NCBI RefSeq assembly: GCF_029887935.1
Contig: NZ_JARXRO010000009.1
Coordinates: 172,820-236,819 of the forward strand
Direction: 5' to 3'
DNA from: Luteimonas kalidii
GTDB taxonomy: Bacteria; Pseudomonadota; Gammaproteobacteria; Xanthomonadales; Xanthomonadaceae
DNA length: 64,000 nucleotides
The position numbers were made by a program, and so were the translations under genes. Positions within the stretch are counted from its first letter, which is position 1; the number at the start of each line of letters is the position of its first letter. The notes beneath the pieces were generated by a model. That model saw only the letters and a list, made by a program, of their open reading frames with translations, did no database searches and was not told the origin of the DNA. Positions 7,613 through 44,900 of the stretch are shown piece after piece.

Positions 7613-7811
7613 GGCGGGTCCCGGGGAGAGTGTCCGCGCCCACGCTAACGCATCCGCGGGTAGCCCGGTACGTCCCGCGCCGCCGCAAGCCTGGAACACG
7701 CCGATGCGGAACGGGCGCCATACGGGGATGGGTGCGTGCGGGACATGATCGACATGCCATGCACGTCGGGATTGGCATCCTGCGTGCTTCACCGCGAGGA
7801 ATCGGATACGG

Positions 7812-8978: not shown

Positions 8979-9033
8979 CGAGGCATTCGCACGCGCCCGC
9001 TACCCTGTCGGGTCTCCCGGACGCGGGCTCCGC

Positions 9034-27914: not shown

Positions 27915-28922
27915 ATGCACCCCCTGGGCAACAGCGGACTGTTCGTCTCCGAACTCTGTTTCGGCGCGATGACCTTCGGCGGCAGCGACGGGATCTGGGG
28001 CCAGGTCGGCCAGCTCGGACAGGACGAGGCCGACGCCCTGGTGCGCTCGGCGCTGGATGCGGGCATCAACTTCTTCGACACCGCGAACGTGTATGCCGAC
28101 GGCCGCAGCGAGACCATGCTCGGCCGCGCGCTGCACAACCTCGGGGTGCCGCGGGACGACGTGGTGGTCGCCACCAAGGTCGCCGCGGCGATGGGCGAAG
28201 GGCCGAACCGGCGCGGCGGTTCGCGGCGCCACGTGCTGGCGCAGTGCCATGCCAGCCTGCAACGGCTCGGCCTGCAGCACATCGACCTGTACCAGGTCCA
28301 CGCCTTCGACCCGGCCACGCCGATCGAGGAGACCCTCGACGCGCTCGACGCGCTGGTGCGCGCCGGCGACGTGCGTTACCTCGGCCTGTCGAACTGGGCC
28401 GCCTAGCAGGTGATGAAGGCGCTCGGGATCGGTCGCGCCCGAAACCTGGCGCCGATCGTCTCGCTGCAGGCGTACTACTCGCTGGTCGGCCGCGACGCGG
28501 AACGCGAGCTGGTGCCGATGCTGGCATCCGAGCGCGTCGGGCTGATGGTCTGGAGCCCGCTGGCCGGTGGCTACCTGACCGGAAAATATTCCGGCGGCGA
28601 CGCCGCCGGCGGCAGGCTCGAGGAGCTCGATTTCCCGCCCATCGATCGCGTGCGCGGCGAACCCCTGATCGACGTGCTGCGCACCGTGGCGCAGCGCCAC
28701 GAGGCCACGCCGGGCCAGGTCGCCATCGCCTGGCTGCTGCACCAGCCGGTGGTGACCACGGTGCTGCTCGGCGCCAAGCGCGTCGAACAGCTGACCGACA
28801 ACGTGCGCGCCACGCAGCTGCGGCTGGACGACGACGAACTCGGGCAACTCGATGCCGCCAGCCGGTTGCCCGCCGAGTACCCGGGCTGGCTGCTGGCGCA
28901 GTCGGACGGCCGCCGCGCCTGA
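27915..28922 (+). pseudogene. aldo/keto reductase gene interrupted by one amber codon
   Basis: The frame encodes a normal 335-codon aldo/keto reductase (FFDTANVYADGRSETMLG with the catalytic Asp and Tyr, VVATKVAA with Lys, QVHAFD with His). A single TAG at 28404-28406 breaks it after SNWAA, where relatives have Trp; TGG to TAG is one base change. Downstream codons stay in frame to a normal end. Candidate explanations are a recent nonsense mutation, a sequencing error or a suppressed stop. An upstream LysR gene diverges and a Gfo/Idh gene follows 85 bp later. Confidence 0.85.
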
Positions 28923-29007: not shown

Positions 29008-30249
29008 GTGTCCACCCAACCACTACGCGTCGGCATCATCGGCGCCGATACCAGGGCAAGCTGGGCCGGGGCGTCCCACGTCCCCGCGATCCGGACGCAA
29101 CCGGGGCTCGCCCTCGCCGCGGTCGCCACGCGAAGCGCGCAAAGCGCCAGCGCCGCGGCCGAAGCGTTCGGCGCTTCGCGCTGGTACGCCGATCCCTATC
29201 GACTCATCGAAGACGACGGCATCGACATCGTCACCGTCGCGGTGAAAGTCCCCGCGCATCGCGAACTGGTGCTCGCCGCGCTGCGCGCCGGCAAGGCCGT
29301 GTACAGCGAATCGCCGCTCGGCGCCACGCTGGAGCAGACCGCCGAAATGGCGTCGGCCGCGCGAGGCCTGCATACCGCGATCGGTTTGCAGGGACGCATG
29401 AATCCGTCGGTGCGCCGCGCCGCAGAGCTCGTCGCGTCGGGCAGGCTCGGCAGGGTGATGTCGGCCAACGTGCGCGCGACCACCTTCGGCTACGGGCCGA
29501 CCTCGCCCGCCGCCTACGACTACTTCAACAAGGCCGCCTCCGGCGCCAGCTTCCTGACCATCACCACCGCCCACGTGCTGGACGTGGTCGAGGCGGTGCT
29601 CGGCGACATCACCGAGCTCGATGCGCGGACCGAACGGCTGTGGCCGGAGGTAGCACTGGTCGATACCGGCGGCACCTCGGTGCGCGAGATCGCCGACCAC
29701 GTCGACCTGGTCGCACGGACTGCGCTGGGTGCGTCGATGTCGGTGCAGGTGCTCGCCGGCGTCGAGTCCGATCCGCATTTCGTGATGGAGGTGCGCGGCT
29801 CGAAGGGGGTGCTGAAGCTGACCGGCAGCCACCTCGCTGGCGTGCAGGTGGGCGACCTGTCGTTGTCGGCGGGCGTGGACTTCGCCGCGCCGGACGCACC
29901 GGTCGCCTCAGGCGTCGGCCCCACCGCCGCGGCGTTCTGGAACGGCGCCGCCATCAACGTCGGCGAGGTCTACGCCAGCCTGGCGCGCGACCTGCGCGCC
30001 GGCAGCTTCGACACGCCCGGCTTCGCCCACGCGCTGCACAACCACCGCCTGGTCGCCGCGGTCGAGCGCGCCGCCGACTCCGGCCAGCGACAGCGCGACT
30101 TCGGCGCACCCGGATCCGAACGGGCTCACCTGCCAACCGGGGCACCGACGATCACGATCAGCGGAGAACGACATGCAACCGGGAAACGGGGACATTCGAC
30201 CGGCGCCGCAGGAGCCTCGGAGGCCAGGGGCGCGGAAAGTCGCCCGTAA
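29008..30249 (+). CDS. Gfo/Idh/MocA-family oxidoreductase
   Basis: A 413-residue NAD(P)-dependent oxidoreductase: Rossmann start VGIIGADTRASWAGASHVPAI, then the conserved YSESPLGATLEQT (EKP-like, here ESP) and a C-terminal alpha/beta domain. The EKP lysine that often takes part in catalysis is replaced by Ser. GTG at 29008 with GGAG eight bases before it sets the start. The last 50 residues (from about 365) do not look like the family and may be read-through, because the same 3' region was duplicated downstream. Substrate unknown. Confidence 0.85.
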   Translation: MSTQPLRVGIIGADTRASWAGASHVPAIRTQPGLALAAVATRSAQSASAAAEAFGASRWYADPYRLIEDDGIDIVTVAVKVPAHRELVLAALRAGKAVYSESPLGATLEQTAEMASAARGLHTAIGLQGRMNPSVRRAAELVASGRLGRVMSANVRATTFGYGPTSPAAYDYFNKAASGASFLTITTAHVLDVVEAVLGDITELDARTERLWPEVALVDTGGTSVREIADHVDLVARTALGASMSVQVLAGVESDPHFVMEVRGSKGVLKLTGSHLAGVQVGDLSLSAGVDFAAPDAPVASGVGPTAAAFWNGAAINVGEVYASLARDLRAGSFDTPGFAHALHNHRLVAAVERAADSGQRQRDFGAPGSERAHLPTGAPTITISGERHATGKRGHSTGAAGASEARGAESRP

Positions 30250-30354
30250 GCCTTGCTCGACGAGAGTGGATGCTCGCCGGAGGCGGACGGACGCACGCAG
30301 GCATGCAGGAACCACGAAACGCCATCGTCGCCGGTGGCGAGGTCCGAGCACGTC

Positions 30355-30555
30355 CCGCGCGACATCCACTGGCGTCTTCGACAGTCCCGGTCTTGTACAC
30401 GCGCTGCACGACCCATGCCTCGACGCAGCGTCCGGACGCACCCCCCGACTCGCGATCCAGCGTCCGCGCAACGTAGGCCAACCCGAAACCGAACAGCAGG
30501 TCCGCCTGCCACACCGGCCCTTGACGGCCACCCACCAAGGAGAACGACATGCACA
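30355..30555 (+). pseudogene. decayed copy of the Gfo/Idh gene 3' end
   Basis: The stretch encodes FDSPGLVHALH, matching FDTPGFAHALH of the intact gene at about 30007, and ends with GGAGAACGACATGCA, which also ends the homologous part of the first copy (30163-30177). Similarity is patchy in between, with small gaps. It occupies the gap before the SDR gene, whose start codon lies in the duplicated end. I read it as a tandem-duplication relic. Confidence 0.7.
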
Positions 30556-31424
30556 CCGATTCCCTGCAAGGACTCAGCCGACGCAATGTGATGCTGGGCG
30601 CGGTCACCGGCATGGCCGCCATGGCCGTGCCGGCGCTGGCCGCGACGCCATCGACGAGCCGATCGACCGGGCCCGCCGATGCCGCGCGCGACCTGCTCGG
30701 CAAGCGCGCCCTGGTGACGGGTGCCTCGCGCGGCATCGGCGCCGGCATCGCGCTGGCGCTCGCGGCTCGCGGCGCCGATGTCGCCATCACCTGGCTGCGA
30801 TCGGCCGACAGGGCCGCGGACGTGGTGCGCGGGATCGAACAGGCTGGCAGGCGCGCGCTGTCGATCCAGGCCGACAGCGGCGACCCTGCCGCGATCCGGC
30901 GCTCGGTCGCGGACACGGTGGCGGGACTCGGCGGCCTCGACATCCTGGTCAACAACGTCGGCATCTCGCGCTCGGGTCCACTGGTCGAGATGGAGCTGTC
31001 CGTGATCCAGGACGTGCTCGACGTCAACGCGCGCGCGGCGGTGCTGGCGGCGCAGGCCGCGATCCCGCACCTGCCGCGGGGCGGCCGCATCATCACCATC
31101 GGCTCGTGCCTGGGCGAACGCGTGCCGTACCCGGGCCTGACGATCTATTCGATGTCGAAGTCGGCACTGCTGGCCTTCAACCGCGGGTTGGCGCGCGAAC
31201 TGGGTCCGCAGGACATCACCGTCAACCTGATCCAGCCCGGTCCGATCGATACCGACCAGAATCCGGCGGATGGCGAGTGGGCGGAACCCAACACCCGACT
31301 GACCGCGCTCGGCCGCTACGGCCAGCCCGCCGACATCGCCGCCGCGGTGACCTTCCTCGCCAGTCCCGCCGCGCAGTTCATGACCGGATCGGTGGTCACG
31401 GTGGATGCCGGCTTCAACGCCTGA
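30549..31424 (+). CDS. Tat-exported short-chain dehydrogenase
   Basis: A 291-residue classical SDR with an N-terminal twin-arginine signal: S10-R11-R12-N-V-M-L, a hydrophobic run, and a cleavage-like end PALAA at about residue 32. The core has TGASRGIG, NNVG, the catalytic Ser in ITIGSCLG and YSMSK. A cofactor-dependent enzyme in the periplasm is unusual; Tat export of a folded, cofactor-loaded protein would explain it, as for Zymomonas glucose-fructose oxidoreductase. The start ATG is preceded by AAGGAGA. It follows the Gfo/Idh relic. Confidence 0.88.
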   Translation: MHTDSLQGLSRRNVMLGAVTGMAAMAVPALAATPSTSRSTGPADAARDLLGKRALVTGASRGIGAGIALALAARGADVAITWLRSADRAADVVRGIEQAGRRALSIQADSGDPAAIRRSVADTVAGLGGLDILVNNVGISRSGPLVEMELSVIQDVLDVNARAAVLAAQAAIPHLPRGGRIITIGSCLGERVPYPGLTIYSMSKSALLAFNRGLARELGPQDITVNLIQPGPIDTDQNPADGEWAEPNTRLTALGRYGQPADIAAAVTFLASPAAQFMTGSVVTVDAGFNA

Positions 31425-31466: not shown

Positions 31467-31483
31467 CGTAAGAGGCCCGTAAG
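31467..31483 (+). promoter_or_regulatory. direct-repeat box CGTAAG-N5-CGTAAG
   Basis: Two exact CGTAAG hexamers spaced 11 bp apart, 54 bp upstream of the Atu4866-like gene. The same arrangement lies before the mipA/two-component operon and an SDR gene. OmpR-type regulators bind such repeats; assignment to the regulator at 33246 is inferred. Confidence 0.65.
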
Positions 31484-31537
31484 GCTGCGACGCCAAGACT
31501 GCAGCGACCGACCCGCCATCCCCCACGAGTCACCGAC

Positions 31538-31939
31538 ATGATGCGCAGCACGCCGATCACCAGCGCCGCCGGCAGGCCGACGGACCACCACGCAAGCGGT
31601 CACCTGCCGGACCGGCGATCCTCCACCGGGCCGACCGCTGCCGACGACGCCATCGCCGCCGGCAGCGTGGTCGGCACCTGGACCAACGACGACGGTTTCG
31701 TCCGCCTCGTGCTGTGCGCCGATGGCCGCTACGAGGAGGCGCGCGGCAGTCGGACGGGCGTGTATCGCGGCCGCTACGCACTGCGCGGCGCGCGCATCGA
31801 ATACCTCGACGACAGCGGGTTCTTCGCCTTCGGCGAGCTCATCGACGACAGCCTCCACCATGGCGGCATGGTGCTGCGTCGCGCCGCCGGGCATGCCGCG
31901 GGCGCTGACGACCCACCGCCGCGCGGAGAATCCGCATGA
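31538..31939 (+). CDS. Atu4866-domain protein
   Basis: A 133-residue protein. The first 40 residues are polar and low in structure; then comes an Atu4866 domain (VVGTWTNDDGFVRLVLCADGRYEEARG, GVYRGRYALRGARIEYLDDSGFFAFGE), a small streptavidin-like barrel of unknown function. The start at 31538 is not fixed by a clear ribosome site and may be further in. Its TGA overlaps the ATG of the decayed CPBP gene, as in an operon. Confidence 0.8.
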   Translation: MMRSTPITSAAGRPTDHHASGHLPDRRSSTGPTAADDAIAAGSVVGTWTNDDGFVRLVLCADGRYEEARGSRTGVYRGRYALRGARIEYLDDSGFFAFGELIDDSLHHGGMVLRRAAGHAAGADDPPPRGESA

Positions 31940-32386
31940 CCGGCGAGGCCGGCGCGAAACCGGCTTCGCGAGCGCCACGCTCATGAAGCCTCGCGCGATC
32001 GTGCATACGTGCTGCTGGCGCTGGGCGTGAGCCGGGCGCTGCAGATCGCCGCGATCGCGGTGTTCGGATCCGACAACCCTGCGGCGATGGCGGGGTTCCT
32101 CTGCGTGATGTGGTCGCCGACCGTGCTCGCGCTGGTGTACATCCGGCGGCACCCGATCGTGCGCGCACAGGTGCTGTGGCGGCTCGGCAGGCCCGCTTGG
32201 CTGCCGCTCGGCGTCGTGGTGCAGGCGGGCATCGGATTCGCGGTGGTCGCCATCCTGGTGGTGGCAGGGCTGGCGACGTCGGGCTGGTTCGATTTCAGCG
32301 CCAACGCGGTCGCGATCTCGGGCGGTCCGTGGCTGCTCGGGCAGGGCATGCAGGGCTGGCCGCGGGGTCCCGTAAGTCCCGCGTAA
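31936..32386 (+). pseudogene. decayed CPBP-type intramembrane protease gene
   Basis: The ATG at 31936 overlaps the previous stop and encodes 16 residues before a stop at about 31984. A shifted frame continues with membrane helices (VLLALGVSRALQIAAIAVFG, WSPTVLALVYIR, GGPWLLGQGMQGWP) typical of the N-terminal half of CPBP proteases. The catalytic half is missing; the frame ends at 32386. A frameshift plus a 3' deletion explains this. Confidence 0.65.
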
Positions 32387-32387
32387 G
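32371..32387 (+). promoter_or_regulatory. direct-repeat box CGTAAG-N5-CGTAAG
   Basis: Two exact hexamers 11 bp apart, about 45 bp upstream of the mipA-like gene that leads the two-component operon. This is a good place for autoregulation by the response regulator. Confidence 0.7.
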
Positions 32388-32432
32388 TCGCGGCGGCGAG
32401 CATGGTGGGCCCTCCCCCACAGGTTCCCGCCC

Positions 32433-33233
32433 ATGTTCCGAACAGTACTGTCGCTCGCCCTGCTCCTGCCCGCCGCGGTGTGCGCGCAGACGCCCACCGG
32501 CGCAAGGCCCGCCATCGCCGAAACCAGCGAAGACGATCGATGGATCCTGGGGCTGGGCGTCTCGGTGGTGGACAGCCCCTACGCCGGCGAAGGCACGCGG
32601 ACGCGGCCGCTGCCCTACGTGACCTATGAAGGCGAGCGGTTCTTCTGGCGCGCCGACACGCTGGGCGTCAACCTGCTGAGGACCGATCGCTTCGCGCTCG
32701 ACGCCATCGTGTCCGGGCGCCTCGACGGCGTGGACCGGGACGACCTGGGCCGCGCCGAGCTGGCAGCCAACGGCGTGGACATCGATCGACTGGTCGATCG
32801 CGACGACGGCGCGGATGCCGGACTCGCCGCAGGCTGGCGCTTCGGACGCAACACGCTGGCGCTGCGTGCGGTCGCCGACGTCACCGGGACCAGCGACGGG
32901 TACGAACTGGCCCTGGACTACACTCATCGCCTGAGCATCGGCAGGACGACGATCATTCCCGGCATCGGCGTGAGATGGCTCTCGGAGGACCTGGCCGATT
33001 ACTACTACGGCGTGCGGTCGACCGAAACCTTCAGCGGCGCTGCCTACCAGGCCGACTCCGCCCTCGTGCCGGCTGCGAGCGTCGTGTTCCAGCGTCCGCT
33101 GGTCGGCAAGTGGCGGATGATCGGCCGTTTGCAGTACCAGCACCTGCCGGACGAACTCACCGACAGCCCCTTGCTGGAACGCGATACGAGCGGGGTGGCG
33201 CATGCCTTCATCGCCGTGGCGCGCGGTTTCTGA
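32433..33233 (+). CDS. MipA/OmpV-family outer-membrane protein
   Basis: A 266-residue outer-membrane barrel with a signal peptide (1-18, ending VCAQ). The conserved segments are WILGLGVSVVDSPYAGEGTRTRPLPYVTYEG and the C-terminal AFIAVARGF, ending in Phe as barrel proteins do. It sits 12 bp before the response-regulator gene, so the three genes form an operon. MipA/OmpV genes often accompany QseBC/PmrAB-type systems. Confidence 0.92.
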   Translation: MFRTVLSLALLLPAAVCAQTPTGARPAIAETSEDDRWILGLGVSVVDSPYAGEGTRTRPLPYVTYEGERFFWRADTLGVNLLRTDRFALDAIVSGRLDGVDRDDLGRAELAANGVDIDRLVDRDDGADAGLAAGWRFGRNTLALRAVADVTGTSDGYELALDYTHRLSIGRTTIIPGIGVRWLSEDLADYYYGVRSTETFSGAAYQADSALVPAASVVFQRPLVGKWRMIGRLQYQHLPDELTDSPLLERDTSGVAHAFIAVARGF

Positions 33234-33245
33234 GCGGATAATGCG

Positions 33246-33932
33246 ATGAATCGAGTCGCCATCGTCGAGGACCACGCACGCATCGCCGGCCTGATCGCGC
33301 GCGGGCTGCTGTCGGCAGGCATCCCGTCCGACGTGTTCGGGACCGCGGAATCGGCATGGCGGCCGCTCAACGAACACGACTACGGCGCGTTGATCGTCGA
33401 CCGCGGCCTGCCCGGTGGCGACGGCCTCGACCTCGTGCGGCGGCTGCGGGCGGCAGGGCGGGCGATCCCGTGCCTGGTGCTGACCGCGCGCGATGCGCTG
33501 CGCGATCGCGTCGATGGCCTCGAGGCCGGGGCCGACGACTACCTGCCCAAGCCGTTCGCGATGGAAGAGCTGGTGGCGCGGGTGCGCGCGCTGCTCCGCC
33601 GCGCGCCATCGCTGCAGCCCAGCGAGATCGTCCTCGGGGACCTGCGCGTGGTGCCACAGGCCGGATGCCTGTGCTGCGGCGACGAAGTGGTGACGCTGTC
33701 GCCCGCGGAACTGCAGATCGTGGTGTGCCTGATGCAGGCCGAGGGACGCACCGTGCGACGCAGCAGCCTCGAGCAGGCGGCCTGGGGGCTCAGTGAAGCG
33801 GTGACGCCCAACGCGCTCGATGTCGCCATGCACCGCCTGCGGCGGAAACTGGCCGCGATCGGCTCCGACATGGTAATGGTCAACACCCGCGGGCATGGCT
33901 ACGCGCTGGGACGTCGCGATGCGGCCTCCTAG
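33246..33932 (+). CDS. OmpR-family response regulator (PmrA/QseB-like)
   Basis: A 228-residue regulator. The receiver domain has acidic residues E8/D9, phosphoacceptor D52 (VDRGLPGGDG) and K102 (LPKPF). The C-terminal winged helix (about 130-225) ends with LDVAMHRLRRKLAAIG and VNTRGHGYAL. It overlaps the kinase start by 14 bp. The nearby CGTAAG repeats resemble the CTTAA-type repeats of PmrA/QseB regulators in hexamer size and spacing, so it is the best candidate to bind them. Confidence 0.95.
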   Translation: MNRVAIVEDHARIAGLIARGLLSAGIPSDVFGTAESAWRPLNEHDYGALIVDRGLPGGDGLDLVRRLRAAGRAIPCLVLTARDALRDRVDGLEAGADDYLPKPFAMEELVARVRALLRRAPSLQPSEIVLGDLRVVPQAGCLCCGDEVVTLSPAELQIVVCLMQAEGRTVRRSSLEQAAWGLSEAVTPNALDVAMHRLRRKLAAIGSDMVMVNTRGHGYALGRRDAAS

Positions 33933-35274
33933 CCTGGTCGGACGGCTGCTGCTGTCCGCGCTGCTCGGCATGCTCGCCGCGGGTGTTGTGGCGATGGCGA
34001 TCTTCGCCGCGTTCGAGCATCTGCGCGGCACCGACTACGAGGTGCACAAGGAAAACCGCGACGACCTGACGGTCATCGAGCGGGAAATCCTCGCCGGCCA
34101 GTTCGACCCGCAGCAGATCGGCGGGACCTGGTTCGCCGGCGACTACGACGCGCTGCGGCGCGACACCGCCTTCCGCGTGCTGGATGCGACCGGCCGGGTC
34201 GTCGTCGACAGCCCGCCGGGACCCGCGCTCGAGGCGCTCGAACGGATGCCGCCCGGCGGCGACCGGGTGGAACTGCAGGGCGATGGCCCGCCGGTGGTGC
34301 TGCAGGTGGCCGAGCGGCGTGTGTCCGGCGACGACGGCGGCTACGTCATCCAGGTCGCGCGCAGCCACCGCATGGAACAGCGCCTGGCCGAACATGCGCG
34401 CAGCCTCTATCGCGATTCGGCGATCGTGGCCGCGCTCGGCGCGCTGGGCGTCTTCACGATCGTCATCTACCTCACGATCCGCCGCGCCGTTGGGCCGCTG
34501 CAGCAGGCCTCGGAACTGGCCGCGCGGATCAATCCGCGCACGGTGTCGGCGCGGCTGCGCACCGAGGGCATGCCGTCGGAGATGATTCCGCTGATCGATG
34601 CGCTGAACCTCGCGTTGCAGAGGCTCGAACACGGCCTGCGCGTGCAGCAGGATTTCCTGGCGACCGCCGCGCACGAGCTGAAGACGCCGCTGACCCTGTT
34701 GCGCGCGGAGATCGAGCTGGGCGAGGGCATGGACCGCGCCGCCATGCTGCACGACACCGAGCTGATGGGCCGGCAGGTCCACCAGCTGCTGCACCTGGCC
34801 GAGGTCAGCGAGGACCGCAACTACCGGTTCGCGCGCCTGTCGCTGTGGTCGCTCGCGCAGGAGGCGGGCGACTACATGAAGCGCGTGGCGGAGAAGGGCG
34901 GCGTGGTCCTGCAGATCGAGCGCCACGGGCGCGAAGCCCGGGTGGATGCGGATGCCGGCGCGGTCTTCGTGCTGCTCAAGAACCTGCTCGAGAACGCGAT
35001 CGGCCATACGCCGAAGGGCAACCGCGTGACCCTCGAGGTCTCACCTGCGGGTTTTGCCGTGGCCGACCAGGGCACGGGGATCGCGGCCGGCGATCGCGCG
35101 CATCTGTTCGAACGCTTCTGGCGGGCCTCCACCACCACCAGCGGCGCCGGACTTGGCCTGGCGATCGTGAGCGAGATCTGCCTCGCGCACCAGTGGACGG
35201 TGACGGCCGAGGTCGCCGACGGTGGTGGGGCCCGGTTCGTGGTCTCGATCCCCGAAGCGCAGGTGCATGCGTAA
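33919..35274 (+). CDS. sensor histidine kinase, EnvZ/QseC class
   Basis: A 451-residue inner-membrane kinase. TM1 is at about 10-33, a periplasmic domain of about 130 residues follows, and TM2 is at about 168-187 with a HAMP-like linker. The H box FLATAAHELKTPLTLLR gives His252. The ATPase domain has LLKNLLENAIGHT, ADQGTGIA and GAGLGLAIV. I chose the ATG at 33919 (MRPPS); 33895 is also in frame. It overlaps both neighbours, so it is coupled to the regulator and to the DUF2384 gene. Confidence 0.94.
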   Translation: MRPPSLVGRLLLSALLGMLAAGVVAMAIFAAFEHLRGTDYEVHKENRDDLTVIEREILAGQFDPQQIGGTWFAGDYDALRRDTAFRVLDATGRVVVDSPPGPALEALERMPPGGDRVELQGDGPPVVLQVAERRVSGDDGGYVIQVARSHRMEQRLAEHARSLYRDSAIVAALGALGVFTIVIYLTIRRAVGPLQQASELAARINPRTVSARLRTEGMPSEMIPLIDALNLALQRLEHGLRVQQDFLATAAHELKTPLTLLRAEIELGEGMDRAAMLHDTELMGRQVHQLLHLAEVSEDRNYRFARLSLWSLAQEAGDYMKRVAEKGGVVLQIERHGREARVDADAGAVFVLLKNLLENAIGHTPKGNRVTLEVSPAGFAVADQGTGIAAGDRAHLFERFWRASTTTSGAGLGLAIVSEICLAHQWTVTAEVADGGGARFVVSIPEAQVHA

Positions 35275-35546
35275 TGAGCCGCGAGGAGTTCGAACGCCGC
35301 GTGCTGTCGGCGGCGACGCGGGTGTGCGCCGATCGATCCGAGGCACGTCGGTGGTACCGCGAAGACCCCCTCGCGGCGCTCGACGGCAGGACGGCGGCCG
35401 ACCTGGTCGGGACGGGAAGCGGCGCGCGGGTACTCGACTTCCTGATCGACGTCCTGCGCCATGAAGCGATGCCCGATCCACCCGTAGCCCGGGTAAGCGA
35501 AGCGCACCCGGGGCATCGCCACCTCGCATCCACCCCGCCCCCGTGA
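35274..35546 (+). CDS. DUF2384 (MbcA/ParS-type antitoxin) domain protein, REP-tailed
   Basis: A 90-residue protein whose middle (about 25-60, ARRWYREDPLAALDGRTAADLV...ARVLDFLIDVLR) resembles the toxin-binding DUF2384 domain of MbcA/ParS/Xre antitoxins. No DNA-binding domain and no RES toxin gene are present next to it. Its ATG overlaps the kinase stop (TAATGA). The last 20 residues are encoded by a REP element, so the original C-terminus has probably been lost or extended. Function unknown; it may modulate the two-component system. Confidence 0.65.
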   Translation: MSREEFERRVLSAATRVCADRSEARRWYREDPLAALDGRTAADLVGTGSGARVLDFLIDVLRHEAMPDPPVARVSEAHPGHRHLASTPPP

Positions 35547-35825
35547 TCCCGGATGCGGCCTTCGGCCTTATCCGGTCTACGCCATGAAGCGATGCCCGAT
35601 CCACCCGTAGCCCGGGTAAGCGCAGCGCACCCGGGGAACCGCCACCTCGCATCCACCCCGCCCCGTGATCCCGGATGCGGCCTTCGGCCTTATCCGGGCT
35701 ACGCCATGAAGCGATGCCCGATCCACCCGTAGCCCGGGTAAGCGAAGCGCACCCGGGGAACCGCGACCTCGCATCGACCCCGCCCCCGTGATCCCGGATG
35801 CGGCCTTCGGCCTTATCCGGGCTAC
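35458..35825. repeat. three-copy tandem array of a ~122-bp unit with REP A and inverted REP B
   Basis: Each unit begins GCCATGAAGCGATGCCCGAT, carries a type A REP (35484-35513, 35607-35636, 35729-35758), a CGCCACCTCGCATCC-like spacer, and an inverted type B REP (35548-35580, 35670-35702, 35793-35825). The period is 123 and 122 bp. The first 26 bp of the unit are the 3' codons of the DUF2384 gene, so gene sequence has been copied along with the REP pair. This fills the gap up to the SDR gene. Confidence 0.93.
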
Positions 35826-35890
35826 GCGTCGCGAGCGCGCATCCCCGCCGCCGCAACCGGCGACCCGGGGATGCGCACCACCCGCGAGCC

Positions 35891-36646
35891 TCAGATTCCC
35901 TGTCCGCCCGACACTTCGATCCGCTGCGCGTTGACCCAGCGGTTCGACTCGCCCAGCAGCGACGCGATCATCGGGCCGATGTCGTCGGGCACGCCCGCGC
36001 GGCCCAGCGCGGTGGCGTCGGCGATCTGCGCGTTGACCTCGGCATTGTCGCGCACCACGCCGCCGCCGAAATCGGTCGCGATCGCGCCCGGCGCGACGGT
36101 GTTCACCGCGATGCCGCGCGCGCCGAGCTCCTTGGCCAGGTAGCGCGTGAACACCTCGACCGCACCCTTGGCCGTCGCGTACGCCGCGTAGCCGGGATAG
36201 GCGAAGCGGGTCAGCCCGCTGGACAGGTTGACGATGCGGCCGTCGTCGGCCAGCCGCGGCAGCAGCGCCTGGGTCAGGAAGAACACGCCCTTGACGTGCA
36301 CGTCGATCAGGCGGTCGAACTGTTCTTCCGTGGTCTCGTCGAACGGCGCCATGTGGCCATGGCCGGCGTTGTTGACCAGGTGGTCGAAACGGTCGCGTTG
36401 CCAGGTGTCGCGCAGCGCGTCGTCTAGCTTGCCTGCGAAGGCTTCGAACGTGGCGACCTCGCCGGTGTCGAGCGGCAGCGCGACGGCGCGACGGCCCAGC
36501 GCTTCGATCTCGGCCACCACGGCCGCGGCCTCCTCGGCCTGGCTGCGATAGGTGACGACGACATCGCCGCCGTTGCGGGCGACGGCCAGCGCGGTGCTGC
36601 GGCCGAGGCCGCGGCTGCCGCCGGTGATCAGGGTGATGGTGGTCAT
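35891..36646 (-). CDS. short-chain dehydrogenase/reductase
   Basis: A 251-residue classical SDR: TGGSRGLG, NNAGHGHMAP, catalytic Ser in IVNLSSG, then YAAYATAKGA for YxxxK. The C-terminal end AQRIEVSGGQGI is typical. The start at 36646 gives MTTITLITGG. Cytoplasmic; substrate unknown. It lies alone between the REP array and a lipoprotein gene on the same strand. Confidence 0.92.
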   Translation of the reverse strand: MTTITLITGGSRGLGRSTALAVARNGGDVVVTYRSQAEEAAAVVAEIEALGRRAVALPLDTGEVATFEAFAGKLDDALRDTWQRDRFDHLVNNAGHGHMAPFDETTEEQFDRLIDVHVKGVFFLTQALLPRLADDGRIVNLSSGLTRFAYPGYAAYATAKGAVEVFTRYLAKELGARGIAVNTVAPGAIATDFGGGVVRDNAEVNAQIADATALGRAGVPDDIGPMIASLLGESNRWVNAQRIEVSGGQGI

Positions 36647-36916
36647 GGGGGTCTCCAGGGAGGTTGGATGGAACAAGGGGGAAAGCGCCGCAGTCGTTCG
36701 GCGAGCAGGTGCGAAAGTGCGCGGCAACGCTGGAACGATGGTGCAAGGGACGAACCGGTCGGCCTCCAGGGCTTGTCCATGCCAGCCCGGAATCAGGGGT
36801 TGGCTGTGCCGTTGGCCGTTACCGTGGCCCCTGTTTCCAGCGCGGGACGCGTTGGCGAGGATTGCAGGGTCCGAAACGGTGCGACGTGCCGGCGTCGACG
36901 CGACCGCACAGGGCGT

Positions 36917-37261
36917 TCATCGCTTGCACTCGCGCCGGTCCGGATCGCGATCGCAGCGCTGCTTGCGCGCACGATCGGCCATGATCTGGGCGTCGCGGGC
37001 GATCTCGGTCGTCAGCCGGGTCTGCTCGAGGGACTCGCGTTGCTGCACGTCCCGTCGGCGCTGCTGCGTAAGCATGCACTCGCTGTAGGCAGGCGAGCCG
37101 TATTCCGCGCCGAAATCCGAGCAGGTGCCCGCATCCTGCTGCAGGTTTACCTGCCGTCGCTCGGCGGGGGAAACGCAGCCTGCAAGGCCGATGCACAGCA
37201 AGGCGAGAAATCCTGGCGAAATCGCGGAAAGACGGTGTTTCGGCAAGGCATGGTGTCGCAT
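36917..37261 (-). CDS. small lipoprotein of unknown function
   Basis: A 114-residue protein with a lipoprotein signal ending GLAGC (Cys29). The mature part is polar, Gln/Arg/Asp-rich, with several more Cys (two near the C-terminus) and predicted helices. The ATG at 37261 has GGAGAA upstream. It follows a 47-residue exported peptide gene. No family recognised. Confidence 0.75.
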   Translation of the reverse strand: MRHHALPKHRLSAISPGFLALLCIGLAGCVSPAERRQVNLQQDAGTCSDFGAEYGSPAYSECMLTQQRRRDVQQRESLEQTRLTTEIARDAQIMADRARKQRCDRDPDRRECKR

Positions 37262-37335
37262 TTCGTGTTCTCCGGTTGTGATCTGAAACGGGTGGGGCGA
37301 GCCGGTGCGACGGGTCCGCACGACGGCCCGGCGAC

Positions 37336-37479
37336 TCAATCGCGCGAGGTGACGATGGCGTCGATCTCCTCGCGCGGCACGCGCCGGGTGGAGGTGTGTG
37401 CGGCGGCGGGAAGGCTGGACAGTGCGGCGGCGAACAACAGTCCGACGGCGAGGGTTGGTGCGGCTGGGAGGGTGCGCAT
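37336..37479 (-). CDS. 47-residue exported peptide
   Basis: A signal peptide (about 1-28, LAVGLLFAAALSSLPAAAHT) leaves a mature part of roughly 20 residues with RRVPREEIDAIVTSRD. GGAG lies at a good distance before the ATG at 37479. It is on the same strand as the lipoprotein gene 74 bp on. The function is unknown. Confidence 0.6.
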   Translation of the reverse strand: MRTLPAAPTLAVGLLFAAALSSLPAAAHTSTRRVPREEIDAIVTSRD

Positions 37480-37573
37480 GGATGTCTTCTCCTCTGGTGC
37501 CGGTGCGGGGCGGCGTGTCCGCCGAGGCGATCGCGCAACACAGCGCCCTGCCCGCGTGGCGGGTGTAGCGGAC

Positions 37574-37607
37574 GTAGCCCGGTTAAGGCCATCGGCCGCA
37601 TCCGGGG
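37574..37607 (+). repeat. REP element, degenerate type B
   Basis: GTAGCCCGGTTAAGGCCATC followed by GGCCGCATCCGGGG; it differs from the consensus at a few bases. It stands between the 47-residue gene and the DUF1097 gene, in a 218-bp gap. Confidence 0.75.
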
Positions 37608-37697
37608 ACTCGGCGCAACACGTGACTGCGTTGCGCCCCGGATGCCCCTTGCCCATAGCGCGCGCAAGCCGTGGTGGTGGGGTGCAGCCGGCCGTCC

Positions 37698-38198
37698 TCA
37701 GGCCGGCTTCGCGGTCTGCGCGGTGAGCGCCGGCAGGCGATGCGCGATCCATCCGGCGGCCGATCCGATCGCGGTCGCGGCGAACAGATGCCCGAAGCTC
37801 GCGATGGTCGGCTCGAGGTGCGCGGCGAACCACGTCACCAGGCCGAGGAAGTAGGCCAGCAGGTTGTTCATCGCCGGCAGGCCACGCAGGCTCACCACCT
37901 GGAACGCGACCACGAACACCACCAGCGGCAGCGCGATGGCGGGCCCGGTCATCGCCGCCACGCGCGGCACGGCGAGCGAGGCCAGCAGGCCAATCGCCAG
38001 GCCCAGGCCCACGCAGCCCAGGTTCTCGAACGTGCTGCGGGTACTGAGGCCGCGGGTGTAGAACGCGATCCAGCCGACGAACATCGCCCAGACCGGCAAT
38101 CCGATCAAGAGGCTCAGCGCGGCGGCCACCGACGCGACGGCGGCGGCGATGAGGGTGGTGAGGAAGAACACGCGGTGGGAGGCTTGGGGAGGGCTCAT
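37698..38198 (-). CDS. DUF1097 membrane protein
   Basis: A 166-residue inner-membrane protein with about five helices. It has the DUF1097 (YcdZ-like) pattern: LLIGLPVWAMFVGWIAFYTRG, VPRVAAMTGPAIALPLVVFV and NNLLAYFLGLVTWFA. Function unknown, possibly transport. The ATG at 38198 is the natural start. It is followed on the same strand by nothing close, and preceded by an SDR gene. Confidence 0.85.
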   Translation of the reverse strand: MSPPQASHRVFFLTTLIAAAVASVAAALSLLIGLPVWAMFVGWIAFYTRGLSTRSTFENLGCVGLGLAIGLLASLAVPRVAAMTGPAIALPLVVFVVAFQVVSLRGLPAMNNLLAYFLGLVTWFAAHLEPTIASFGHLFAATAIGSAAGWIAHRLPALTAQTAKPA

Positions 38199-38288
38199 GG
38201 GTGTTGTCCTGGCTGGGGGGAAGCAAGGGGTTCGCGACGCGATCGAAGCGGCTGGCGATCGACTGGCATGCCGCGCGCTTCGCGGCGG

Positions 38289-39188
38289 TCACGCGGGGTC
38301 GGCGGGCCGGAGCAGGCTTTCCAGCCCGAGGTTGCGGTACATCTCGCGACGCACGCGGTCGCCCACGGCGTTGACCGCTTCGGCGCCGTCCTCGCTCGGA
38401 TCGACGTGCACGCGGAACGGGCGCCTGCCATGCGGCAGGTCGACCACGCGGGCGATCGCATCGGCGACGTCGGCGACATCGGCATCGGCCGGCTCCAGCG
38501 CCTTCAGCCGCTCGAGGATCTGGTTGGGCAGTCCCGCGTACGGTCCTTCGTCGTACTCGCGGGCACGGTCTGCATCGGCGGGCGTGCCCGCGTGCGCGAA
38601 GTGGTTGGTGCCCTGTGTATACGCACCCGGCAGCACGATGCTGGTCTCGATGCCCCAGCGCGAGAGCTCGGTCGAATACGACACGGCCACCGAATCCATC
38701 GCCGCCTTGGCGGCGAAGTACGGCGCGAGGTACGGCGGCGTGCCGCCGCGCGTGCTGCTCGATCCCACCCACACCAGCAGGCCGTTGCGCTGCGCGCGCA
38801 GGTGCGGCAGGGCCGCGCGGTTGACCCGCTGGGTGCCGACCACGTTGACTTCGTAGAGTTCGACGAACTGTTCCGGCGTGAACGCCTCGGTGGGGCCGAA
38901 CACCATGTGCCCGGCGTTGTGCACCAGCACGTCGAGGCGCCCGGCCTCGTCGAGGATGCGCTGCACGGCGGCGTCCGCGGAGTCCTGCGACAGCACGTCG
39001 AGTTCGACCGTGCGCAGGTCGACGCGCAGTTCCTGCGCATGGCGCGCGGCCGCGGCGGCCTGCGGCGCATTGCGACCGTCGATCTCGCGCATGCTCGCGT
39101 AGACGGTGTGGCCCGCGGCGGCCAGGCGGCGCGCGGTGAGGGCGCCGAATCCGGACGAGGCGCCGGTGACCAGGATGATCCTGCTCAT
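38289..39188 (-). CDS. short-chain dehydrogenase/reductase
   Basis: A 299-residue SDR: TGASSGFG, HNAGHMVFGP, Ser in WVGSSSTRGG and YFAAK for YxxxK. It has the longer C-terminal region of the retinol-dehydrogenase-like type (RVHVDPSEDG). It starts 17 bp after the next SDR gene's stop and is probably cotranscribed with it. Confidence 0.91.
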   Translation of the reverse strand: MSRIILVTGASSGFGALTARRLAAAGHTVYASMREIDGRNAPQAAAAARHAQELRVDLRTVELDVLSQDSADAAVQRILDEAGRLDVLVHNAGHMVFGPTEAFTPEQFVELYEVNVVGTQRVNRAALPHLRAQRNGLLVWVGSSSTRGGTPPYLAPYFAAKAAMDSVAVSYSTELSRWGIETSIVLPGAYTQGTNHFAHAGTPADADRAREYDEGPYAGLPNQILERLKALEPADADVADVADAIARVVDLPHGRRPFRVHVDPSEDGAEAVNAVGDRVRREMYRNLGLESLLRPADPA

Positions 39189-39204
39189 GTCATTGTCTCC
39201 CCTG

Positions 39205-39954
39205 TCAGACCATGCCGCCGTTGGCGCGCACGACCTGGCCGTTGATCCAGCTGCCCTGCGCGCTGGCGAGGAAGGACACGACGGACGCGATGTCGTCGGG
39301 CGTGCCGAGGCGCTCGAGCGGGTTCATCTTCGCCATGCGCTCGATCAGCTCGGGCGACTTGCCGTCGAGGAACAGGTCGGTGCCGGTCGGGCCCGGCGCG
39401 ACCGCGTTGACCGTGATCGAACGGCCGCGCAGTTCCTTCGACGCGATCGCGGTGAGCGTTTCCACCGCGGCCTTGGTCGCGGCGTAGGCGCCGTAGGTCT
39501 CGAGCTTCACGCCGATCACGCTGGTGGAGAGGTTGACGATGCGGCCGCCGTCGCGGAGGCGCTTCATCGCCTCGCGCAGGGCGTTGAAGCTGCCCTTGAG
39601 GTTGATCGCGACCATGCGGTCGAAGCTGTCGTCGTCGGTGTCGGCGATGGGCGCGAGGCGCATCACGCCGGCGTTGTTGACCAGCACGTCGATGCCGCCG
39701 AAGCGCGCCTCGGTGGCGTCGAACAGGCGCCGCACGGCGCCGGGATCGGCTACGTCGGCCTGCAGGGCGATGGCATCGCCACCGGCGTCGGCGATGCGCT
39801 CGACGACGCGTTCGGCATCGTCCCGGCGACCGGCGTAGTTCACGACCACGGCGTGGCCATCGGCGGCCAGGCGCTGCGCGATCGCGGCGCCGATGCCGCG
39901 CGAGCTGCCGGTGACGAGTGCGACCGGGCGGGGAGGCTTGGAGGTGTTGTCCAT
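39205..39954 (-). CDS. short-chain dehydrogenase/reductase
   Basis: A 249-residue classical SDR: TGSSRGIG, NNAGVMRLAP, Ser in IVNLSTSVIG, YAATK for YxxxK, and a normal end GQVVRANGGMV. The ATG at 39954 is preferred over a longer frame. It is divergent from the LysR gene at 40215 and has a CGTAAG-type direct repeat 155 bp upstream, so it may answer both the LysR and the two-component system. Confidence 0.93.
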   Translation of the reverse strand: MDNTSKPPRPVALVTGSSRGIGAAIAQRLAADGHAVVVNYAGRRDDAERVVERIADAGGDAIALQADVADPGAVRRLFDATEARFGGIDVLVNNAGVMRLAPIADTDDDSFDRMVAINLKGSFNALREAMKRLRDGGRIVNLSTSVIGVKLETYGAYAATKAAVETLTAIASKELRGRSITVNAVAPGPTGTDLFLDGKSPELIERMAKMNPLERLGTPDDIASVVSFLASAQGSWINGQVVRANGGMV

Positions 39955-40108
39955 GGGGGGGTCCTTGGGGGAGGAGGGCTCAAGCCGCCGGACCGGCCCC
40001 GGCGAGAACGGGACGTTCGGCTCCGGGCGGCTGTCTTGCGAGCGAGCGGGAGGCAGCTGTGCGGGGGAGGCTGCCGGCGGCGGTGATCGCAATCGTCGGC
40101 AGGGCCGA

Positions 40109-40125
40109 CTTACAGCGTGCTTACG
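40109..40125 (-). promoter_or_regulatory. direct-repeat box CGTAAG-N5-TGTAAG
   Basis: Read on the minus strand, toward the SDR gene, this is the third copy of the 11-bp-spaced CGTAAG repeat with one mismatch. Orientation relative to its gene is the same as in the other two. Confidence 0.6.
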
Positions 40126-41293: not shown

Positions 41294-41935
41294 TCACACC
41301 TCGAGGATCCCGCGCTTGAGTGCCAGCAGGACCGCGTGGGTCCGATCCTTCGCGCCCAGCTTGGCGAAGATGCTCTTCATGTGCGCCTTGACCGTGCCTT
41401 CGGTGACCTTCAGGCTCTCGGCGATCTCGCGGTTCGCGTTGCCGCGCGCGAGTTCCTTCAGCACCTCCACCTCGCGCGGCGACAGGCAGTCCTCGCCGGC
41501 ATGTTGCGCGAGTTCCATCGCGATCTCCGCGGGCACGACGCGCCGGCCGGCATGCACGGCGCGGATGGTGTCGCGCAGTTCCTTGCGCATCATGCCCTTG
41601 AGCATGAAACCCCGGGCGCCGCTCTTGAGCGCGCTCAAGGCCTGTGCGTCGCCACGATACGTGGTCAGCACCACGATGCGCGCATCGGGCCAATCGCCCA
41701 GGATCTCACGCAGCGCGTCCAGCCCGCCCATGCCGGGCATCTGCAGGTCCATCAGGGTCACGTCCGGACGATGGACACCGAACAGGTCGACGGCTTCGCG
41801 GCCGTTCATCGCCTCCGCGACCAGCTCCATGTCCGGCTGTTCGCTCAATGCTGCCTTGATGCCGTCCAGCAGCAGCGGATGGTCGTCGACCGCCATGACC
41901 CTGATGGTGCGCGGCGTCTCGTCAGGCTGCGTCAT
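41294..41935 (-). CDS. NarL/FixJ-family response regulator
   Basis: A 213-residue regulator: receiver with D17/D18, phosphoacceptor D63 (LMDLQMPGMGG), Lys in MLKGMMRKE, and a LuxR-type helix-turn-helix (LSPREVEVLKELARGNANREIAESLKVTEGTVKAHM). Its ATG overlaps the sensor kinase stop as ATGA. It is the cognate partner of that kinase. Confidence 0.95.
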   Translation of the reverse strand: MTQPDETPRTIRVMAVDDHPLLLDGIKAALSEQPDMELVAEAMNGREAVDLFGVHRPDVTLMDLQMPGMGGLDALREILGDWPDARIVVLTTYRGDAQALSALKSGARGFMLKGMMRKELRDTIRAVHAGRRVVPAEIAMELAQHAGEDCLSPREVEVLKELARGNANREIAESLKVTEGTVKAHMKSIFAKLGAKDRTHAVLLALKRGILEV

Positions 41936-44900
41936 TTCCGGTGCTCCCCGTCCAGGCTGCCGAGAATCCTGCGCCAGCCCCGGCGCCTGTCACCGGCGTT
42001 GCGATAGGCGACCCTGGCCGGGACATGCAGGTCGACCGTGGTGCCTGCACCGGGCTTGCTCGACAGGTGGATCTTTCCACGGATTTTCCCTGCGCGCTCG
42101 CGCATGCCTTTCAGGCCCCAGCGTCCCTTGCGGACGCTGGACAGGTCGAACCCGCAGCCGTCGTCGCTCACCCGGACCTCCAGCTGGCGCCGTCCGAACA
42201 CCGTGGTCACCGCGATGCGCGTGGCCCCTGCGTGCCGGAATGCGTTGGTCAGTGCCTCCGCGCCGATGCGGTAGGCCTCTTCCTGCACCAGTGGCTCCAG
42301 CGTGCGGATGTCGCCCTCGACATGCGCGCGGAAGCCCACTGCGTAGTCGCGCGACAGCTCGTTGCCGACCATGGCCAGCGCCTCCGGCAGGTTGAGGCTG
42401 ACCGTGGCGCGTAACTCGGACACCTTGTCGCGACCATCGGCCAGCACGCGATCGGCACGATCCAGCGCATCCTCCATCAGCTCCCTGGCCGGCTCGCCTT
42501 GCGGAATGCGCTCGGCAGCGGACTGGAACCTCAGCATCAGGCCCTGGACGCCCTGCAGGAACGTGTCATGCAGGTCGCGCGCGATGCGCTCGCGCTCGAG
42601 CAGGCGCGCCTCGCTCCGCCATTGCAGCTTGGTCCTGACCTGCCGCATGCGAAGCACGAACAGTAGCCAGAGCGCTGCGCCTGCTGCGGCAACGCACAGC
42701 GCCAGGAACGTGCGCGACTGGAGGAAGGTGGGCGGAACGACGAAATCAAGGACGGCCCCAGCTTCGTTCCAGAGGCCCGAGTCGTTCGCTGCGATCACAT
42801 GGAAGCGATACCTGCCTGGTGGAAGGCCGGTGAAAAAGGCCTCCCGCCGCGTGCCCACATCCTCCCAGCCCATCTCCGAACCTTCAAGGCGGTACCGGAA
42901 TTGCACCCGTTCCGGAATCGTGAAGCTCGGCGCCGTGTATGCGATCTGTATGACAAGCGGAGTAGTGGGAAGCCGCAGGATGGAGGTCCTCGGGCTCTCG
43001 AGGTCCGTGCGGTGGCCATCCACCGTGATGGACTTTAGGTAGACGTCTGGAACGACGGTGTTACGCGGTGGAGTTCGCGCCGCAAGCGATACCACGCCGT
43101 CGTTGGTCGAGAACCACAGGCGTCCGTCGGTACTTTCGACAGCGGTCGGCCACGGGCGGAGCGACGCGAACGCGCCCGGCATGCCGTCGAGGTGGTCGAA
43201 TAGCCGGAACTCCACCGGGTGTACGGGGTTCCCGGCAACCTTCCGCGCCTCAGCCGAGGGAATGTGTACCGCGCCCTCGCTCGTGTTCAGCCAGACGTCT
43301 CCCTGGGATCTCTCGACAATGCCGTTGACGCTACCGAACGCAAGCGGCGCGGCGCCGAGGACGTTGTGGAAACGTCGGCCGTCGAATCGAGCCAGTCCAT
43401 TCTCACCGCCTATCCAGGTGTGGCGGCCGCGCACCGCAAGCACTTGTATGGCACCGATCTTCAGACCGTCGGCAGCGTCGTACACGGTCACGCGGCCCTG
43501 GTCGACAACCGCGATCCGGCTGTCGACGTAGCCAAGCCACAGGCGCCCGGCTGCATCCATCGCCATCGCCGTCGCCGGCTCGCGCGGCAAGTCGGCCAGC
43601 CCGCCCCACAATGTCCAGAGATTGCCGACGACGCGGTAGACGCCCACCCGGACGATGGAAACCCATAGCGTGCCATCGCCCTGGCTGGCCATGGCCTGGA
43701 CGCTATCACCCCCACCGGTGTCCGCTCGCTGCCACTGGATCCATCGATCACCCTGTCGGTGGTAGATCGAACCGTTGGGTCCACCCACCCATAGAGTGCC
43801 GGCATGATCCAGATGCAGAACGCCGTAAGGCTCGTGTGGCGATTGCAGCGTCTCACGCGTTTTTCCATTCTGCAGTCGGTGCAACGTGCCTTCGTAGTCG
43901 CTGACCCAGACCGATCCGTCATCGGCGGCCGCGAGCGCCGTGCTACCGGATGCCGTGCGCTCCACCGCGATGCTCACGAACGCGGACGCGCGAAATCTGG
44001 TCAATCCTCCGCTGGAAGTTGCCCAGACATTGCCTTCGCGATCCTGCATCAACATGCCCGAGTACTCGCCAACCAAACGGGTCTGATCGGCATGGTCTTC
44101 GGCCTGTCCGGTGCCGGGGCGCGCTCCGACCCCCTCCCCCCAATGCGGAACACGCGTGACGCGGCTCCAATTGGAAACCCACAGGCTCGACTCCCGGTCA
44201 ACCAGGATCGAGGACACCGGCTCTCCGCTGTCGGACCCGTCGGGCCGCCATTCGAGCACCATCTTGCCGCCCGGCTCGGGAACCCGCAGTTCCGCCAGCC
44301 CGTGCGCGGTCCGCGCAAGCCAAAGGCGGCCATCCGGCGCCGGGACGAAGTAGGCATCCATTGGCTCCCGGAGCGCCAACTCGAACCTACGCTCACCGCT
44401 GCGCTGGAAGTAGAGTGAATCCGGTGCAAGGACCCATAGCGTTCCTGCAGGATCCAGCACCATGTCGACCACGGGCACCTGAGGGATGTTCCAGCCATCG
44501 TCCGCAGGCCTCCAGCGCCCACCCTCCAGCCAGAAGAGTCCTCGCGTCGTCCCGGCCCACATGCGGCCATCGGCGCCTTCGGCGAAAGCCGTTACCGAAT
44601 TGGGCGGAAGTCCATCGCTCGTGGAGTAGTTCCGGAGAGTTGAATCTTCGTCGATGAATGTCGCGCCTCCGAACTGGTAGCTGACCCATAGCCCGCCTTG
44701 CGGCCGCGCCCACATCCGGTGCACCCGGGCAGAAGGCAGCGGCGATCCACCGATCTGGTGGATACGTTCGAATTCGACACCATCGAAGCGGAACAGATGG
44801 CCGCTCGCCGCCAGCCAGATGTATCCACTGTCGGTCTGGACCAGTTGGATGATCCCGCTCGGCGCGCCGTTCTGGATTGTCCATTGGGTCCGGTGCAGCT

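Follow-up and report, generated by a model that had tools for sequence, protein, structure and literature searches.

PmrA (BasR) is an OmpR-family regulator whose tandem half-sites are bound head-to-tail, with base-specific contacts made by Asn188 and Asn196 and hydrophobic ones by Thr187, Val192 and His195 (PMC4660055), and it upregulates pmrC in Acinetobacter (PMC12654582). BqsR of Pseudomonas aeruginosa is an activator with the operator TTAAG-N6-TTAAG, one pentamer of which overlaps the -35 element at the promoter studied (PMC4682146). AdeRS of Acinetobacter stands beside a divergent resistance-nodulation-division (RND) efflux operon, AdeABC (PMC11892822), and a repeat of 11-bp period, AAGTGTGGAGNAAGTGTGGAG, is described for AdeR (PMC10052836). 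Two other systems are tied to MipA/OmpV proteins: ParRS of P. aeruginosa controls one that is proposed to be a polymyxin co-sensor (PMC10936184), and the regulon of BesRS, an envelope-stress system of Burkholderia thailandensis, includes a MipA/OmpV gene (PMC9426598). In this work we analysed a stretch of 64,000 nucleotides of Luteimonas kalidii (contig NZ_JARXRO010000009.1, positions 172,820 to 236,819), called the window below, in whose coordinates all its features are given, and a 16-bp direct repeat, GTAAG-N6-GTAAG, that precedes an operon encoding a MipA/OmpV protein, an OmpR-family response regulator and a sensor kinase (mipA-RR-HK). This box is very probably the operator of the adjacent regulator (33246–33932), which would activate its own operon and three neighbouring units. 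The observations that carry this reading concern the sites, their conservation and spacing, their distance to a -10-like element and their co-occurrence with two-component genes. As judged from sequence comparison, a two-component system of known kind has here a new operator specificity; no description of a GTAAG-N6-GTAAG operator was found in the literature covered, which mostly leaves out subscription journals.

The core has an 11-bp period and is exact in three window copies: (C)GTAAG-tcccgC-GTAAG at 32371–32387 on the forward strand (core from 32372), 45 bp ahead of the mipA start; (C)GTAAG-aggccC-GTAAG at 31467–31483 on the same strand (core from 31468), before an Atu4866-family gene; and GTAAG-cacgct-GTAAG at 40109–40125 on the reverse strand, before a unit of short-chain dehydrogenase/reductase (SDR) genes. 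A weaker fourth copy, GAAAG-tcgccc-GTAAG (30235–30250, forward), has one mismatch and precedes another SDR gene, at 30549. A preliminary description of this DNA had placed CGTAAG-N5-CGTAAG repeats at 31467, 32371 and, with one mismatch, 40109, always in the same orientation relative to the gene; all three are present and each points toward the gene behind it. It had also likened their hexamer-N5-hexamer geometry to that of PmrA/QseB boxes, and here the 11-bp direct repeat stands, whereas the half-site is neither CGTAAG nor CTTAAT/G, being GTAAG. In hexamer form the single mismatch of the 40109 copy is the first base of the second hexamer and so falls outside the pentamer, and the shared core is therefore GTAAG-N6-GTAAG; because the base ahead of GTAAG varies, the hexamer was replaced by the pentamer. 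With at most one mismatch the pentamer core matches the window four times, against a mean of 0.13 in shuffled sequences, none of 100 of which reaches four; the hexamer form with at most two mismatches also gives four matches, a weaker result against a shuffle mean of 1.18 (four is reached in 3 of 100 shuffles). In the 3,959,197 bases of the genome the exact core is found three times, always inside the window, and four of the nine places that match with at most one mismatch are there as well. The flanks of the window copies appear unrelated by eye, so that these copies are not the product of one recent duplication. The mipA copy overlaps the stop of a small open reading frame (ORF), 32009–32386, and is thus not purely intergenic if this ORF is real; the 30235 copy overlaps the end of an open frame ending at 30249.

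Within the genus, 52 Luteimonas genomes were compared, that of the window (G000) included, and the kinase was scored as present when it matched at an expectation value (E) of 1e-40 or better, as in 14 of them, G000 among these. All 14 have an exact box at most 1.3 kb upstream of the orthologous regulator, whereas an exact box occurs in 4 of the 38 genomes without the kinase (Fisher p 1.7e-9 for presence); the exact sites number 30 in the former and 6 in the latter. At spacings N7 to N16 the 14 genomes yield 14 matches over 10 spacings, or 0.1 per genome and spacing, against 2.1 for N6, so that about 0.1 exact sites would be expected per genome as judged from the other spacings. To avoid circularity, every repeated pentamer at spacings of 0 to 16 was counted upstream of the regulator: GTAAG-N6 comes first, in 14 of the 14, and the next pair reaches 5. 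By tblastn, mipA lies between box and regulator in eight of the 14 (G000, G001, G015, G036, G064, G032, G031 and G023), where the end of the box is 45–47 bp from the mipA start, or, in G023, 51 bp. The operon of G014 yielded no mipA, and a mipA elsewhere in that genome has a box 45 bp ahead of its start; G005, G029, G033, G066 and G075 gave no mipA in the fetched stretch (tblastn, E 1e-10), and there the box directly precedes the regulator. In G001 an exact box also stands before an SDR gene orthologous to that at 30549 (81% identity).

The association extends to other genera. The named loci are the best 46 of at least 80 (L098 to L143), the remaining 34, at E 4e-32 or weaker, lying outside the analysis; L117, which gave no regulator match, was dropped, leaving 45, and L098 and L108 belong to genomes already in the Luteimonas set (G023 and G029) and enter both counts, the -10 profile below excepted. 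Their genera include Stenotrophomonas, Rhizobacter, Pseudomonas, Halomonas, Kosakonia, Trabulsiella, Delftia, Roseateles and Rheinheimera. In 36 of the 45 the operon strand carries an exact box no more than 1.3 kb ahead of the regulator, and in none of the 45 upstream regions does that strand hold a GTAAG pair at any other spacing from 0 to 16; in the count of all pentamers GTAAG-N6 again comes first, with 36, and the next, unrelated pair has 6. Tandem half-sites with a period of 10–11 bp thus stand upstream of the gene proposed to be regulated. Among the loci without the exact form, L105, L133 and L135 carry at its place a copy with one mismatch, and three Pseudoalteromonas loci have a diverged regulator, 37% identical, with a changed recognition helix. 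Plasmids were searched once the motif was settled: tblastn of 72,556 plasmids with the regulator (E 1e-40) gave nine records, eight of which were examined in stretches of about 10 kb (H4, of the same species as H3, was left out). The exact box is upstream of the regulator in all eight; in the five annotated loci it lies 48–53 bp ahead of a MipA/OmpV gene, the other three having no annotated genes. Together with the Luteimonas counts, these results lend comparative support to the earlier proposal that one OmpR-type regulator, that at 33246, reads the repeats. At E 1e-70 a class-wide search of 274 genomes returned G000 alone, so that either the family is patchy or this threshold is too strict.

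Each copy in the window is followed by a hexamer that resembles a -10 element: AAGACT (31495–31500, forward) 11 bp after the Atu4866 box, GACGAT (40092–40097, reverse) and GAGAGT (30262–30267, forward) at the same, usual distance from the 40109 and 30235 boxes, and GAGCAT (32398–32403, forward) 10 bp after the mipA box, 1 bp nearer than usual. We aligned 43 upstream regions on the box; they were hand-picked from known boxes, the window's four included, so that the box columns are constant by construction (the 30235 copy aside) and only the -10 columns are informative. In these, 32 of the 43 regions have A at position 28, counted from the start of the box, and 32 have T at position 32, in keeping with a -10 hexamer placed 11 bp behind the second pentamer; p values for these columns were computed with base frequencies of 0.2 and 0.18. 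The mean match to TATAAT in the eight plasmid loci is best 11 bp after the box (3.62 of 6, against 1.37 over all offsets), and it peaks there too in 34 named loci, L098 and L108 being left out (2.97 against 1.40); in the 14 Luteimonas boxes besides the window's the peak is weaker and split over 10 and 11 bp (2.0 of 6 against 0.98). Six control boxes from genomes without the kinase have no TATAAT peak at that place. Searched genome-wide, the pattern GWAAG-N6-GWAAG-N12-A-N3-T has exactly three matches, at 30235, 31468 and 40109, and its backwards-read control has none; the mipA copy, with its nearer -10-like element, falls outside the pattern. We consider this search the strongest evidence that the copies other than that of mipA would be real promoters of the same class. 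The distance from box to -10-like element places the box in the -35 region.

In the mechanism that we propose, two regulator monomers would lie head-to-tail on the box, one per pentamer. The box ends 10–11 bp before the TATAAT-like element, and the regulator would probably act as an activator, replacing or helping a weak -35 element. Phosphorylation of the regulator by the sensor kinase (33895–35274) would then turn on their own operon, in a positive feedback, and in the window genome the regulator would also switch on the SDR gene at 30549, the Atu4866-family gene at 31538 and an SDR-SDR-DUF1097 unit running from 39957 to 37698. Envelope damage or cationic compounds probably provide the signal, since boxes of relatives, some with one or two mismatches, precede PAP2 genes, EptA-like genes and efflux components.

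Several observations weigh against an operator shared by these four units. The genome-wide scan that the preliminary description had suggested bears it out for the exact core, all three copies being in the window; at one mismatch or fewer, however, the nine places compare with 53 for a backwards-read control. The hexamer form, scanned genome-wide with the same tolerance, gives 4 against 11, and over the 52 Luteimonas genomes about 81 matches of the backwards control outnumber the 36 exact sites. The backwards word is evidently the commoner one, so we rejected raw abundance as evidence, which lies instead in clustering, exact spacing and conservation. Taken alone, the Luteimonas operons show a weak -10-like signal (2.0 of 6), and each of the window's four hexamers agrees with TATAAT at three of six positions only. 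The exact box is missing from 9 of the 45 named loci, and L128, L131 and L134 have no box although their regulators keep most of the recognition helix; moreover the 45 are not independent, with several from each of Rheinheimera, Halomonas, Kosakonia and Delftia. With the 40109 box as its operator the 39957 SDR gene would have a leader of about 130 nt, and a divergent LysR gene may be the main regulator there. Finally, no exact box outside G000 was identified at the Atu4866 gene or at the 39957 SDR gene, so that these two links have no comparative support beyond the -10 distance and are so far specific to the window genome.

This last point bears on another explanation, in which the adjacent regulator uses the box as operator solely for its own operon and the Atu4866 and SDR copies are chance or decayed sites without effect. 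The regulator operon is indeed the sole unit found with a box in all 14 genomes. Yet two extra exact sites lie within 8 kb of the system where about 0.1 per genome is expected, the 30235, 31468 and 40109 copies alone in the genome have a -10-like element at the right distance, and the G001 box stands at the orthologue of the 30549 SDR gene; we therefore regard a regulon confined to the operon as unlikely. It is less likely still, indeed very improbable, that some other OmpR-family regulator of the cell reads the box, the adjacent system being just one of its targets. Related boxes are common in the family, PmrA and BqsR recognising similar tandem repeats (PMC4660055, PMC4682146), and sequence alone cannot assign a regulator; however, box and kinase co-occur in Luteimonas (14 of 14 against 4 of 38), the box accompanies the regulator in other genera and on plasmids, and the recognition helix is strongly conserved. 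That the repeat is no operator at all, and instead a shared promoter-proximal or RNA-level sequence or an element carried by transposition, is scarcely credible: a 123-bp tandem repeat lies nearby, so repeats do occur here, but the box is just 16 bp long with flanks that look unrelated, its spacing is fixed, and it keeps a near-constant distance to the -10-like element and, in Luteimonas, stands 45–51 bp before mipA. We thus retain the operator of the adjacent regulator, acting on its own operon and on neighbouring units, as the preferred reading.

What lies behind the box in relatives gives an indication of its role. In Luteimonas G033 (L042) a divergent one-mismatch copy (6851) faces a PAP2 gene (7037–7933), with an EptA-type transferase gene (7963–9702) second, 29 bp after it, and an exact copy (9865) stands before another PAP2 gene. 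PAP2 and EptA-like homologues are also present in the stretches of G005, G029, G066 and G075, where divergent copies have one or more mismatches, and a PAP2 gene of Variovorax (L178) stands behind a copy with one mismatch. A second copy, with one mismatch and on the opposite strand, lies 44–46 bp from the first and points toward efflux components in the loci of Pseudomonas (L112), Halomonas (L124), Rheinheimera (L106) and Caldimonas (L109). Because of these PAP2, EptA-like and efflux genes, of the ParRS–MipA link and of the BesRS regulon, a role in envelope or cationic stress is our best guess, which we favour by a small measure. More tentatively, and with somewhat less confidence than in that role, we suggest that these regulators form an unnamed PmrA-like two-component family of beta- and gammaproteobacteria, on chromosomes and plasmids, with its own code GTAAG-N6-GTAAG tied to the recognition helix VTPNALDVAxHRLRRKL and an autoregulated MipA co-sensor, to which lineages would add different neighbours via the box. 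If so, lineage-specific neighbours such as PAP2/EptA-like enzymes, efflux and redox enzymes would come under one switch. A short, exact and strongly conserved operator would allow the regulon of this two-component family, apparently undescribed, to be read from the sequences of many bacteria; it would tie MipA, whose role is unsettled, to envelope genes for EptA-like transferases and efflux pumps, and it suggests that one switch was rewired to local redox genes in Luteimonas.

Other arrangements of the box and of its surroundings were also noted. Paired boxes on opposite strands, 45–56 bp apart, occur in L042 (6795/6851), L106 (2160/2205) and L124 (2194/2240), the second box of each pair having the form GTAAG-N6-GAAAG; these pairs suggest divergent promoters under one regulator. 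In L094 (5530–5556), from Luteimonas G016, which has no kinase, three GTAAG follow each other at 11-bp spacing, perhaps the site of another regulator of the same class. A triple GTCAG-N6-GTAAG-N6-GTAAG of 11-bp period lies about 90–100 bp before a gene in L088 (4234–4260, G033) and L089 (4972–4998, G066); in L088 this gene is an FHA-GGDEF gene, and a link to cyclic-di-GMP signalling is possible. On a Paraburkholderia plasmid (L184) the mipA-regulator-kinase cluster has a second response regulator inserted and has transposase genes of the Tn3 and IS110 families on its flanks, within 5 kb, which suggests a possibly mobile module. On the Pantoea (L179) and Eleftheria (L182) plasmids a LysR gene and an aldo/keto reductase or SDR gene lie within about 3.5 kb of the operon, surroundings that recall those in the window. 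A possible relation to the QseBC-like plasmid regulators beside mobile colistin-resistance genes was provisionally set aside; the plasmid search gave only the nine records above, eight of them covered over about 10 kb.

In the window the operon consists of mipA (32433–33233; Pfam PF06629, 1.2e-44), the regulator gene (33246–33932), whose product has the receiver domain (PF00072, Response_reg) and the winged helix (PF00486, Trans_reg_C) of the OmpR/PhoB family, and the kinase gene (33895–35274; HisKA and HATPase_c), all on the forward strand. The likely further targets on this strand are the SDR gene at 30549–31424 (adh_short_C2, 9.6e-60), with a twin-arginine-like leader by eye, and the Atu4866-family gene (31538–31939; PF11512, 3.4e-29). 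On the reverse strand the likely target is the SDR gene 39205–39957 (adh_short_C2, 5.8e-62); a second SDR gene (38289–39188; adh_short, 3.8e-37), 16 bp downstream, likely shares its operon, to which a DUF1097 membrane protein gene (37698–38198; PF06496, 8.3e-20) possibly belongs as well. The divergent LysR gene beside the 40109 box is that at 40215 (Pfam). The description of MipA as a porin is replaced by membership of the MipA/OmpV outer-membrane protein family, which is all that the analysis gives, and that of the Atu4866-family product as a stress protein found no support in it. The end of a Gfo/Idh oxidoreductase gene (30001–30075, forward) has a 71% identical second copy 370 bp downstream (30371–30445), between the 30235 box and the SDR gene, resembling a remnant of a duplicated gene end. 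By eye ORF 32009–32386 (forward) resembles the beginning of a membrane protein, and it has no Pfam match; the mipA operator lies over its stop, as though the operon were fused to a truncated gene. Directly 3' of the kinase gene, ORF 35274–35546 (forward) has a weak match to the C-terminal domain of Xre/MbcA/ParS antitoxins (6.7e-06) and runs into the tandem repeat at 35457–35827, where a 123-bp unit is present three times in a row (96% matching), between the kinase gene and the next SDR gene. Farther out, an aldo-keto reductase gene (27915–28922, forward) is split by an in-frame TAG at 28404–28406; both halves match PF00248, and the second has an 86% identical relative in G001. Beside the LysR gene lies a second two-component pair (41294–45015, reverse), a 1027-residue propeller sensor kinase and a LuxR-type regulator.

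How does the regulator compare with its known relatives? Its closest solved structure by sequence is PmrA/BasR. Among NCBIfam models the best is TctD (NF012023), at 167.5 bits for a cut-off of 337; PmrA (NF007928) gives 162.1 bits for a cut-off of 330 and QseB (NF007663) 149.4 bits for one of 345; scores so far below the cut-offs make it none of these. In an HMMER alignment Asn188, Asn196, Thr187, Val192 and His195 of PmrA correspond to N189, R197, P188, V193 and H196 here, within the strongly conserved helix. Aligning 59 regulators (the window protein and two genomes counted twice; L104, a frame of fewer than 150 residues, left out; L132 cut short) gave 58 with a residue at these places, with Arg197 and Val193 in all 58, His196 in 56, Pro188 in 55 and Asn189 in 49. 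The half-site may have changed from TTAAG to GTAAG through the exchange of Asn196 for Arg and of Thr187 for Pro, although some regulators for which no box was found carry the same residues.

Among the systems tied to MipA/OmpV proteins, ParRS resembles that of the window in linking such a protein to a two-component system and differs in that mipA of P. aeruginosa is in a separate operon with mipB. BesRS was rejected as a match since its reported cis region, TGCGGCCACAAATTTGCACGCA, does not resemble the GTAAG box (PMC9426598). The DzrR box, of CTCCAT repeats, differs from the GTAAG box and was rejected as well. AdeRS is similar in its operator, AAGTGTGGAGNAAGTGTGGAG containing the AAG of the pentamer, and the form GTAAGTGTCCAGTAAG being found in some Luteimonas boxes; OEP, HlyD or ACR_tran genes adjoin the regulator locus in five scanned relatives (L112, L109, L106, L124 and L111), and no efflux gene was found beside the regulator in the window. 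AdeRS differs in that no AdeR model is among the best 25 NCBIfam models listed for the window regulator, and we know of no mipA gene in an adeRS operon. The half-site of the PmrA box is CTTAAT, or TTAAG when read on the other strand. PmrA shares with the window regulator the OmpR family, the tandem half-sites, Val192, His195 and mostly Asn188, and relatives of the window system carry a box with one or two mismatches before a PAP2–EptA-like unit; the difference lies in the half-site, GTAAG here, and in the replacement of Asn196 and Thr187 by Arg197 and Pro188. The BqsR operator differs in that its pentamers start with T, where the count finds G, and in that the operon partner here is mipA; it is alike in its pair of pentamers in identical orientation, in its 6-bp gap and in its placement in the -35 region.

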